Assembly (NCBI GenBank): GCA_011523735.1
Contig: WTGB01000085.1
Coordinates: 29,276 to 93,275 of the forward strand
Direction: 5' to 3'
DNA: 64,000 bases
From: Chloroflexota bacterium
Lineage (GTDB): Bacteria > Chloroflexota > Anaerolineae > Aggregatilineales > Phototrophicaceae
The notes under the pieces were generated by a model. It did no database searches. It was not told the DNA's origin and saw only the letters and a list, made by a program, of their open reading frames with translations. The stretch's first letter is position 1; each line of letters opens with the position of its first letter. Below are positions 8,789 to 49,520 of this stretch, one piece after another. Made by a program: the position numbers and the translations under genes.

Positions 8789-9913
8789 TTAACCGGACTG
8801 TCCGCCGCTCACTACAGTACGAACGCCGATTGGCGAGAGGGTGCCCACCGGGCTGATATCCGCCTGTTCGCCCGCAACGGGATTGAGAGTGCCGCAGGCT
8901 TGCGCCGCCTCTTGCTGCTTCGCCGTCAGAAGGCCGCGGCTCACCGGGCTGTAATTCGGCTGCAGCGCCAAGGCGGCTGTGTATTGCTCCCGCGCCAGGC
9001 AGGCGTCTCCCTGCAACAGGAGCGCATCGGCATAATAGCGTAGCGCATCCTGCAATTCGCCGACCACCTGTCCATTCATATAATTCGGATTATGCTGATA
9101 CACGATCTCGCTAAACCGACGCACCGCCTCCGCCGGGTTGGTCGTCTTGTATCGCTGGCCGATCAGAAAAGTATCGGCAATGTAACGCTCGTAATTCAAT
9201 TCGCCGATGTCCCCGTAAACTTCCGCTCGCTCGGTCAAGACGATCGCTTCCGACAATTTGAAGCTGCGGTACAGCGCGAGCGCTTGCGCCGTTAGCGCTT
9301 CCAGCAGCATACTGCGCACCAGCTCGCGCTGATAGCTGTCGTCGATGCTGACGATCGCCTCAAGCGTTTGTATCGCCGCGGTATAATTCCGCTCTGCGTG
9401 ATCCGCCCGCGCTTCCGCCAACAGCGCGTCGAGATCATAAGCCCATTCCGCCTCATCGCTGACTTCCGTAATCTGCGGCTCAAGCGCCAGGGTGGGGACG
9501 ACGGTCGCTGTAATGACCGGTATGGCTGTTTGCGTCGGGGCAGGAGTGGGGCTGGGCTGCCTCTGCAAATAAGCCGCCGTCGCCGTCGGTATCAGGCTGA
9601 GCAGGCAGGCCGGCCTGAGCCTCGCTTGCTGAAGATCTTCGATCCGCTTCCGCGCCAAGTCAAATTTGCCTTGTGCCAGGTCCTGCGGCAGCAAATCGCA
9701 TTGCAACTGAACTTCTGCCTCGGCGGTTCCCGTAGCCTGCGCGCGCGCGGTCTGCAAGCCCGAACTCCAGCCGGCATAGGCCGCCGCCATCACAATAGCT
9801 AGCGCGATCAGCAGGCAGGTGACAGCGAGTGCAATCCATAACAGGCAACTCGCCCACCGTCTCCGCTTATCAGGATGATCGTAATTTGTCACTTGCGCTT
9901 GGTCTGGCTTCAA
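8789..9913 (-). CDS. Membrane-anchored TPR-like protein
   Basis: A 374-residue protein with a short basic N-terminus (DKRRRWAS), one transmembrane helix (about 22-48), an extracytoplasmic Cys/Gln-rich helical segment, a Pro/Thr linker (PSPTPAPTQTAIPVITATV, about 120-140) and C-terminal helical repeats (about 160-340) of TPR character (ARADHAERNYTAAIQTLEAI, ADALLLQGDACLAREQYTAA). It is probably a single-pass protein with repeats outside the cytoplasm that act as a protein-binding scaffold. The start is a TTG with GGGGA about 11 nt upstream; no in-frame ATG exists before residue 43. Nothing identifies a partner. Confidence 0.7.
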   Translation of the reverse strand: MKPDQAQVTNYDHPDKRRRWASCLLWIALAVTCLLIALAIVMAAAYAGWSSGLQTARAQATGTAEAEVQLQCDLLPQDLAQGKFDLARKRIEDLQQARLRPACLLSLIPTATAAYLQRQPSPTPAPTQTAIPVITATVVPTLALEPQITEVSDEAEWAYDLDALLAEARADHAERNYTAAIQTLEAIVSIDDSYQRELVRSMLLEALTAQALALYRSFKLSEAIVLTERAEVYGDIGELNYERYIADTFLIGQRYKTTNPAEAVRRFSEIVYQHNPNYMNGQVVGELQDALRYYADALLLQGDACLAREQYTAALALQPNYSPVSRGLLTAKQQEAAQACGTLNPVAGEQADISPVGTLSPIGVRTVVSGGQSG

Positions 9914-10126: not shown

Positions 10127-10156
10127 TTGACGCTAAACCACATGCCATGTTACACT
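10127..10156 (+). promoter_or_regulatory. Promoter of the metG leader
   Basis: TTGACG (10127-10132) and TACACT (10151-10156) are 18 bases apart, and the -10 is preceded by TGT, making it an extended -10. Initiation 7 bases downstream falls at about 10163, which is the A of the leader-peptide ATG, so the leader transcript may begin directly at its start codon. Confidence 0.65.
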
Positions 10157-10162
10157 CCCCGC

Positions 10163-10243
10163 ATGAATACTCAGCAGCCGAAGTTCACGCCTATGCGGAT
10201 GCCATCCGTCCATATTGACAGACGGCTGTTGTGGCTCGCCTAG
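10163..10243 (+). CDS. Putative 26-residue metG leader peptide
   Basis: The frame runs from ATG 10163 to TAG 10241-10243. It encodes a short peptide with methionine codons at positions 1, 11 and 13 (ATG CGG ATG at 10193-10201). It is too short for the ORF track. It has no ribosome-binding site because the predicted transcript starts at or next to the ATG, so translation would be leaderless. The two internal Met codons lie a few bases upstream of the first arm of the alternative RNA structures at 10206-10294. That is the arrangement expected if ribosome stalling on Met codons senses charged tRNA-Met to control methionyl-tRNA synthetase. Two internal Met codons is a modest enrichment, so coding status is an inference from placement, not composition. 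Confidence 0.5.
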   Translation: MNTQQPKFTPMRMPSVHIDRRLLWLA

Positions 10244-10276
10244 GCATCACATCGCTCAAAGCCAATACCGTCTGTC
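10206..10276 (+). promoter_or_regulatory. Antiterminator pairing of the metG attenuator
   Basis: Segment B, GACAGACGG (10217-10225), is the exact reverse complement of segment C, CCGTCTGTC (10268-10276), giving a 9-bp helix. Segment A, CCGTC (10206-10210), can instead pair with GACGG (10221-10225) inside B. A small CGGAT/ATCCG hairpin (10196-10208) overlaps the Met codons and segment A. B:C and the C:D terminator cannot form together, so the leader has the switch logic of an attenuator. Confidence 0.65.
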
Positions 10277-10294
10277 AGCGACAGGCGGTTTTTT
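10267..10294 (+). terminator. Intrinsic terminator in the metG leader
   Basis: ACCGTCTGTC (10267-10276) pairs with GACAGGCGGT (10280-10289) through ten base pairs with a single G-U, a 3-nt loop AGC, and a TTTTTT run to 10294. It stands 66 bases before the metG start codon and downstream of the leader promoter, so it must be bypassed for metG to be expressed from that promoter. Confidence 0.85.
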
Positions 10295-10359
10295 GTTCCA
10301 TGGTCGCTACAGGCGCCTAACCGAGCGGCCTCTTAATCAGTAAGCAGGAGCGAGTCCGT

Positions 10360-12171
10360 ATGTCAGCACAATATATTCATGTATCGGTAGCTTGGCCCTA
10401 TGCCAATGGCGACCTGCACATCGGCCATCTCGCCGGCGCCTATCTGCCCGCCGATATCTTCGCCCGTTACCATCGCCTGCGCGGCAATCATGTGCTGATG
10501 GTCAGCGGCTCGGATAGTCATGGCACGCCGATCACGGTCGAGGCGGACAAGCGCGGCGTCTCCCCCCGCGAGGTCTTCGAGCATTATCACGAACGCTTCC
10601 TGCAAACGCAGCGGAAAGTCGGCGTCAGCTACGACCTCTTCACCCATACCGACACCGAAAACCATCACCGCGTCGCCCAGGATATCTTCACCATCCTGCT
10701 CGAGCGCGGTTATCTCTACAAGGAACAGCAGACCCTGCTCTACAGCGAGCGCGAGAAGCGCTTCCTGCCCGATCGTTATGTCGAAGGCACCTGCTATATC
10801 TGCAAGTATCCTTACGCCCGCGGCGACCAATGCGAAAACTGCGGCAATCTGATGGATGCCATCCAGCTAATCGATCCCCACAGCCGCAATAATCCCGCTG
10901 ACAAGCTCATCAAGCGCGAATCCGAGCACTATTTCCTCGATCTCGGCAAGTTCACCGAGCAGATCCTGGAATATCTCGCGGCGCATGAACATCACTGGCG
11001 CCCCAACGTCAGCCGCTTCAGCCAGAACTTCGTCAAAGACGGTCTGCGGGGCCGTCCCATCACGCGCGATATTGATTGGGGCATCCGCGTGCCGCTGGAA
11101 GGCTGGGAAGACAAGCGGCTCTACGTCTGGTTTGACGCCGTCATGGGTTACTTCACCGCCAGCATCGAATGGGCACAGAACATCGGCAAACCTGATGCGT
11201 GGAAGAAGTGGTGGTACAACCCCGATGCCAAGATCTATAACTTCATCGGCAAAGACAATATCCCCTTCCACACCATTATCTGGCAAGCCGAACTGCTGGG
11301 CATAGACGGCATCTACAACGAGGACGACCCGGTCTACGGCGATATCCCGTTGCAACTGCCCTACGATGTGCCCGCCAACGAATTCATGAATATCGAGGGC
11401 CAGCAATTCTCCACTTCGCGCAATTGGGCGGTCTGGCTGCCCGACTTGCTCGAGCGCTACCAAGCCGATGCCCTGCGCTTCTATGTCGCCCGCACCTTCC
11501 CCGAACGGCAGGACAGCGATTTCTCCTGGGAGGGCTTCCTCGCCCGCGTCAACAACGAGTTGCTGGCGGCTTGGGGCAATCTGGTCAATCGCATGCTTGG
11601 TTTCGCTTTCAAGCGCTTCGATGGCGCCGTGCCGGCTTACGACCAACTCAGTCCGGCGGACCAAGCCATCATCGCCGCAACCGAAGCCGGCTTCGAGACA
11701 GTCGGCGCGCTGCTGGACGCGGTCCGGCTCAAGGAAGCGCTGGAAGAGACGCTGGGGCTGGCCCGCGAGGTCAACGGCTGGCTCAACGAGCGCGAACCCT
11801 GGAAGACGCTCAAGCCTGACCGCGCCGATGCCGCCCGCTCGGTCTATACGGCGCTGCGCTGCATCGACAACTTGAAAGTTCTCTTCGCGCCTTTCACGCC
11901 TTTCAGCTCGCAGCAGGTCCACGAGATGCTCGGCTACGACGGGCAGCTATTCGGCGACTTGAAAATCGAGAACTACAGCGAAGAGACGCGCGATCACCTG
12001 GCGCTGGTTTATGACGGGGGCAAGGCGATAGGGGAGTGGAAAACGAGCGAGTTGGGGGCGGGTCAGAAGCTGCGGGCGCCGAGTCCGCTGTTTGTGAAGC
12101 TGGATCCGGAGATTGTCGAGCAGGAGCGGCAGTATTTGGGGCGTGAGCGGGTGGAGAATCCGATTCATTAA
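10360..12171 (+). CDS. metG: Methionyl-tRNA synthetase
   Basis: A class I aminoacyl-tRNA synthetase of 603 residues that charges tRNA-Met. The HIGH motif is at residues 20-23 (GDLHIGHL). Two zinc-knuckle pairs are present (CYIC about 145-148 and CENC about 158-161). The second class I signature is FSTSR at about 350, replacing the usual KMSKS. A helical anticodon-binding domain occupies about 390-530. The C-terminal EMAP/Trbp-like tRNA-binding domain of the E. coli enzyme is absent, as in many shorter MetRS. ATG 10360 has AGGAG 9 nt upstream. The gene lies behind the attenuator-like leader described above and is followed by a perfect 8-bp hairpin (12194-12212). Confidence 0.97.
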   Translation: MSAQYIHVSVAWPYANGDLHIGHLAGAYLPADIFARYHRLRGNHVLMVSGSDSHGTPITVEADKRGVSPREVFEHYHERFLQTQRKVGVSYDLFTHTDTENHHRVAQDIFTILLERGYLYKEQQTLLYSEREKRFLPDRYVEGTCYICKYPYARGDQCENCGNLMDAIQLIDPHSRNNPADKLIKRESEHYFLDLGKFTEQILEYLAAHEHHWRPNVSRFSQNFVKDGLRGRPITRDIDWGIRVPLEGWEDKRLYVWFDAVMGYFTASIEWAQNIGKPDAWKKWWYNPDAKIYNFIGKDNIPFHTIIWQAELLGIDGIYNEDDPVYGDIPLQLPYDVPANEFMNIEGQQFSTSRNWAVWLPDLLERYQADALRFYVARTFPERQDSDFSWEGFLARVNNELLAAWGNLVNRMLGFAFKRFDGAVPAYDQLSPADQAIIAATEAGFETVGALLDAVRLKEALEETLGLAREVNGWLNEREPWKTLKPDRADAARSVYTALRCIDNLKVLFAPFTPFSSQQVHEMLGYDGQLFGDLKIENYSEETRDHLALVYDGGKAIGEWKTSELGAGQKLRAPSPLFVKLDPEIVEQERQYLGRERVENPIH

Positions 12172-49411: not shown

Positions 49412-49520
49412 ATGATGAGTCGGGACCCTTGCGGCAGAAAATTCCGAACCGTGTCAGGGCTTAACGGCAGCAGCACTAAGGAAAACATCTGGGTGTCTTG
49501 CGGTATCCTGACTCATCTTC
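49412..49520 (+). ncRNA. ffs: Signal recognition particle RNA (small bacterial type)
   Basis: About 105 nt of RNA that binds Ffh to target membrane proteins. The conserved core is AACCGTGTCAGG then a 10-nt stem-loop then AGCAGCACTAAG, matching the helix 8 motif of bacterial SRP RNA (CAGG opposite AGCAG). The ends GATGAGTC (49414-49421) and GACTCATC (49510-49517) are perfectly complementary and close the hairpin. Between CAGG and AGCAG the sequence GCTTAACGGC replaces the usual TCCGGAAGGA, so the tip reads GCU-UAAC-GGC, a URRC-type instead of a GGAA tetraloop. It has a strong promoter but no clear T-tract terminator, and no Alu domain. The boundaries are approximate. Confidence 0.85.

Follow-up and report, generated by a model that had tools for sequence, protein, structure and literature searches.

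A conserved, probably leaderless methionine leader peptide and a putative transcription attenuator upstream of metG in Chloroflexota

Methionyl-tRNA synthetase (MetRS), the product of metG, charges both the initiator and the elongator tRNA-Met, and the question raised by the metG locus of a Chloroflexota bacterium of the family Phototrophicaceae is how the expression of such a gene might be tied to the supply of its own product, Met-tRNA. Methionine is an awkward amino acid for sensing by a leader peptide, since no ribosome can start without Met-tRNA. A sequence-only reading of the window, by which we mean the whole analyzed stretch of 64,000 nucleotides from contig WTGB01000085.1 of a metagenome-assembled genome, had proposed a ribosome-mediated attenuator with a Met-containing leader peptide at this locus. 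We compared the metG upstream regions of 61 genomes from the same genus, family and order, along with 80 named loci and 120 genomes from the class.

The metG leader and its reading frame

The elements considered in this study are the following:

8789-9913, opposite strand to metG: the gene 5' of the metG region
10127-10156, + strand: promoter, with -35 TTGACG (10127-10132), an 18-nt spacer and the extended -10 TGT-TACACT (TGTTACACT; hexamer 10151-10156)
10163-10243, + strand: leader peptide gene of 26 codons, encoding MNTQQPKFTPMRMPSVHIDRRLLWLA, with ATG at 10163 and stop codon TAG at 10241-10243; probably leaderless
10193-10201, + strand: Met11-Arg12-Met13, the putative sensor codons (Met11 10193-10195, Met13 10199-10201), assigned by conservation and Met enrichment
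10206-10210, + strand: segment A, CCGTC, which could pair with B
10217-10225, + strand: segment B, GACAGACGG, the antiterminator strand, which comprises leader codons 19-21 (Asp-Arg-Arg) and mimics D
10268-10276, + strand: segment C, CCGTCTGTC, the partner of B or D
10280-10294, + strand: segment D, GACAGGCGG, with T6; 3' arm of the intrinsic terminator (10280-10288) and U-tract (10289-10294)
10360-12171, + strand: metG, methionine--tRNA ligase, the putatively controlled gene (TIGR00398, 477 bits against a cut-off of 336)

The intrinsic terminator sits between the leader frame and metG, and since the upstream neighbor lies on the opposite strand, it does not serve to end an upstream gene. Promoter-like and terminator-like sites are not rare between 9000 and 13000 (4 versus 1.3 expected and 7 versus 3.1 expected, respectively), so that by themselves they prove nothing, and the evidence that goes beyond chance is comparative. 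Elsewhere in the window lies a bacterial small SRP RNA (49418-49516, + strand; RF00169, 48.7 bits).

The extended -10 promoter of the sequence-only reading is present, and its position relative to the leader frame is conserved. In the window the leader ATG lies 6 nt 3' of the -10 hexamer, and this distance is 6-7 nt in 59 of the 66 leaders in which a -10 was found, the -10 and the leader start having been picked jointly by a script; a -35 element matching at 5/6 or 6/6 positions usually accompanies the hexamer. Among the genus leaders the TACACT-N6-ATG layout is visible by eye, and in some other families (e.g. L046, L048, L052-L055) a promoter at the leader start was not seen. Given this short spacing, the leader mRNA is probably leaderless, with transcription starting at or beside the leader ATG.

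To define Met runs we required an ATG-started frame just 5' of the terminator in which two or more Met fall within six codons, and used dinucleotide shuffles as the control. Such runs occur at 75 of 85 metG loci with a clear terminator, against 2.3 expected, and runs with at least three Met at 50 of them, against 0.0 expected, though these counts are not independent, as many of the related sequences come from the genus. The reverse strand has a run at a single locus of the 85, and ten loci lack one by the criterion used. No other amino acid equals Met in this contrast; the next highest is Arg (76 versus 31.3 expected), which is enriched because B encodes it. Of the ATG triplets in the 18 nt leading up to the last Met codon, 131 share the leader frame and 2 do not, a contrast that is partly built in, the frame having been chosen for its Met content. 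Each of the eight families sampled in the order (f1-f8) has genomes with Met runs, in forms such as MPMRM, MMGMM, MMM, MMRM, MMVM, TGMMM, GMMVM and MAMPM.

Within the genus, the frame with Met codons 11 and 13 described by the sequence-only reading is retained along with the position of those codons. All 31 genus leaders have a length divisible by three, with 36, 39 or 30 nt from the ATG to the last Met. Codons 2-8 are saturated, with 0.63-0.66 of sites differing at all three positions, and still the frame remains open; the Met region differs at 0.02-0.12 of sites and B at 0.00-0.06. All 22 same-length genus leaders keep both Met11 and Met13. The caveat that only two internal Met codons exist holds for the window, which has ACG at codon 9, and does not extend to its relatives: 14 of those 22 leaders have a third Met (Met9), and other families show MMGMM, MMM or MMRM.

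One could ask whether the nascent sequence rather than Met-tRNA shortage stalls the ribosome, as in an arrest peptide. The good conservation of MPMRMP within the genus would suit such a peptide, as would the different conserved peptide that precedes metG in other Anaerolineae families. However, across families the Met residues alone persist (MPMRM, MMGMM, TGMMM, GMMVM, MAMPM) and their flanks vary, and we consider arrest by the peptide very unlikely.

Alternative pairings and fold models of the proposed switch

The pairing of B with C over 9 bp is perfect in the window, as had been proposed, and the alternative C:D terminator with its T6 tract is likewise there. Both complementarities are retained in the window's family: B:C is paired in 94.3% of cells, versus 28-42% when the segments are slid, and C:D in 97.7%. 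True covariation at B:C is modest, amounting to three pairs changed on both sides in seven cells, with joint changes of B and C seen as single examples (L025, L129, L092). Furthermore, B pairs almost as well with the C segment of a different sequence as with its native partner. With so little covariation and so cheap a partner swap, most of the support for B:C is conservation. In the genus leaders Arg20 is almost always AGA and Arg21 always CGG; B is thus near-invariant even at synonymous sites, which indicates that it is held as a nucleotide sequence. The distance from the last Met to B also varies very little within the genus (17 nt).

The sequence-only reading had assigned a part to pairing of A with B, which is not conserved in the window's family. 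A:B is paired in 54.7% of cells there, and its covariation score was reached by 187 of 500 shuffles; we therefore do not regard it as a conserved off switch in this family. A protector hairpin of this kind (1:2, here A:B) is usual in attenuators of the trp/his type, and we do not treat it as a requirement of the class; a ribosome at the stop codon could take its place. The small CGGAT/ATCCG hairpin noted as a competitor of A is present in the window's leader, shortened in a near relative, and not part of the conserved device. The stop codon does lie 16 nt past the last base of B in the window, as noted earlier; most leaders have it 13-19 nt past B, while in the L027-L031 subclade the stop codon adjoins B. 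From these positions a terminating ribosome probably masks B, and in the window's family this masking, rather than A:B, is the more likely way of disabling B.

For leaders of the window's type, fold models agree with the proposed logic of the his/trp type, in which a stall at the Met codons frees B. Over 53 such leaders, the mean probability that C is sequestered upstream is 0.87 with the ribosome at the last Met codon (0.60 when the spacer is shuffled) and drops to 0.31 once the ribosome stands at the stop codon; the antiterminator of these leaders is predicted to be mutually exclusive with the terminator and to be left free by a stall at the Met codons. When the stall position was moved codon by codon in all 75 leaders, C sequestration peaked at 0.77-0.78 between 0 and +3 nt from the last Met and fell from +9 nt onward. 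The point at which the folding models predict the switch in the window's family coincides with the last Met codon. For the window itself, B:C is favored in the stalled state by 1.2 kcal/mol (-27.0 vs -25.8) and the terminator in the free RNA by 3.5 kcal/mol (-43.8 vs -40.3).

At equilibrium the terminator nonetheless still dominates the predicted folds of many stalled leaders, and indeed is favored in many leaders in all states, as would be expected if attenuation were constitutive, the terminator just setting a low metG level and the Met frame serving coupling or re-initiation. This would leave unexplained the Met specificity, the fixed Met-to-B spacing and the fact that B duplicates D within a region that evolves fast, and we hold it to be slightly less probable even than peptide arrest.

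Proposed mechanism and other sensors

The promoter, the leader frame with its Met codons, segments B to D and the terminator are conserved, with one occurrence per genome. Searching with a covariance model built on the leader gave a single copy in each of 36 genomes, at metG; the model is tuned to the window's family, and diverged copies would escape it. In one genome the attenuator (L032:496-601, equivalent to G033:C52:321766-321871) lies about 600 nt 5' of metG, with an apparent small membrane-protein frame in between.

A structured RNA, such as a T-box, a SAM-binding or another riboswitch, might instead control the terminator, the reading frame being incidental. T-boxes controlling metG exist in Firmicutes, and T-boxes were found in all 61 genomes searched, three of them in the window's own genome. 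One of these, outside the window on contig 111 (G000:C111:95505-95737), stands just 5' of a class I synthetase gene (PF00133). At the metG leader, however, the saturated codons 2-8 always stay in frame, and no conserved helices besides B:C and C:D were found in the window's family. Covariance models of Rfam 15, including those of SAM riboswitches and leader attenuators, gave no match between 10000 and 10400 even at E up to 5; the T-box model (RF00230) had no match at the metG leader, and an Rfam search of 20 related loci returned tRNAs only. The absence of such matches speaks strongly against a T-box or another Rfam family as the metG sensor, and of all the readings considered here a structured RNA sensor appears to us the least probable.

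Taken as a whole, the comparisons make it very probable that metG is regulated by a ribosome-mediated transcription attenuator that responds to the supply of Met-tRNA. Transcription, and with it translation, would start at the leader ATG. When Met-tRNA is plentiful, the ribosome would reach the stop codon and cover the 3' part of B, upon which C would pair with D and transcription would end. When Met-tRNA is short, the ribosome would stall on Met11-Met13 and B would stay free to take C; the terminator would then fail, metG would be transcribed and Met-tRNA would be restored.

A further, rather speculative extension is that the attenuator senses both the initiator and the elongator tRNA-Met pools, so that failed initiation or a stall at Met would each turn metG on. 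It is suggested by the charging of both tRNAs by MetRS, the probable start of the leader at the 5' end of the mRNA, and the fold-model prediction for the window's type of leader that RNA without a ribosome often sequesters C before D is made. We regard it as unlikely. It would set the metG leader apart from trp, where absence of translation leads to termination, whereas here absence of initiation would turn metG on.

Related leaders and comparison with known attenuators

In other families of the order the same leader would be joined to a different RNA scaffold. Segment A after the Met run (e.g. GCTTGCCGTGG) can pair with A', directly 5' of the terminator, through at least 10 pairs in several of these leaders, whose free RNA folds as an A:A' multibranch structure; in several cases A', once A is masked, pairs with C in a short hairpin. 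A hairpin of the A:B region with compensatory changes also occurs in these families. The arrangement would again be a 1:2, 2:3, 3:4 scheme, though the simple fold model shows no switch above shuffles (C sequestered 0.53 when stalled versus 0.55 with shuffled spacers, 22 leaders).

At the class level, at least two Met are found in 17 of 84 loci versus 7.1 expected, an enrichment that is weak overall. Met-containing leader frames (RMMRRDPSRSGA and AMDMPSGAP, each followed by a stop codon, LMPMVMPC and ASMSMQM) with hairpins precede metG in other families of the class (L148, L150, L151, L153, L166, L169, L174, L146, L158, L180, L217, L213). L146, L148-L153, L169, L174 and L217 are likely to be further cases. 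Separately, 17 class-level loci outside the window's order (L154, L176, L178, L188, L195, L198, L202-L204, L206, L209, L210, L212, L218, L222, L223, L228) share a conserved peptide, [SPV]A[AV][KT]GxM[GRE], upstream of metG (e.g. KYRQASAAKGNMGAPPPR, then stop). Third codon positions of these frames vary freely, and in most of them the single Met codon is followed directly by a G-rich/C-rich hairpin. When the peptide was searched for as a DNA pattern, 14 of the 17 genomes had a match, and 14 of the 15 matches are upstream of metG; we regard it as a candidate arrest peptide that may control metG separately.

Among known systems, E. coli pheM-pheST combines a leader peptide enriched in the synthetase's own amino acid with alternative hairpins and a terminator before an aminoacyl-tRNA synthetase gene, all of which it has in common with the metG leader. 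It differs in sensing Phe rather than Met, in its Shine-Dalgarno-led leader and in belonging to gammaproteobacteria, and we know of no sequence relation between the two. If the proposed mechanism holds, the metG attenuator would bring both Chloroflexota and MetRS into the range of leader-peptide sensing. As the genomes concerned have T-boxes too, it would be an example of one genome placing different sensors on different synthetase genes, and it would offer a testable system for the way in which cells distinguish initiator from elongator shortage.

In the open-licence literature we found no description of a metG leader peptide, nor one in Chloroflexota. As of 2010 leader peptides were known only from Proteobacteria and Actinobacteria, to which the hisS paralogues of Bacilli were then added (PMC2965389), and a list of attenuators names His, Leu, Thr, Trp, Ile/Val and Phe, and no Met (PMC3766115). 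For the methionine operons of Actinobacteria no conserved RNA structure was reported (PMC1262725). With the classical trp/his attenuators and those described for actinobacterial trpS and leuS (PMC1262725), the metG leader shares a stall-controlled competition between antiterminator and terminator. With leuL2-leuS, trpL2-trpS and thrL-thrS of Streptomyces lividans it shares a leaderless leader peptide before a synthetase gene, leuL2 also having a hairpin and a U-stretch; those serve other amino acids in another phylum, with no metG case among them (PMC8079986). Another S. lividans leader, metL (MSTTSDRTPATEATTTPGARCMCRRMCAF), is leaderless and has two internal Met codons as in the window, but it precedes metNIQ, a methionine importer, and termination at that locus is reported as uncertain, no typical terminator having been found there (PMC8079986). 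Judged from sequence comparison, the metG leader is conserved, encodes a Met leader peptide that is probably leaderless, and very probably acts as an attenuator, a known principle with a new specificity, on a new gene and in a new phylum.
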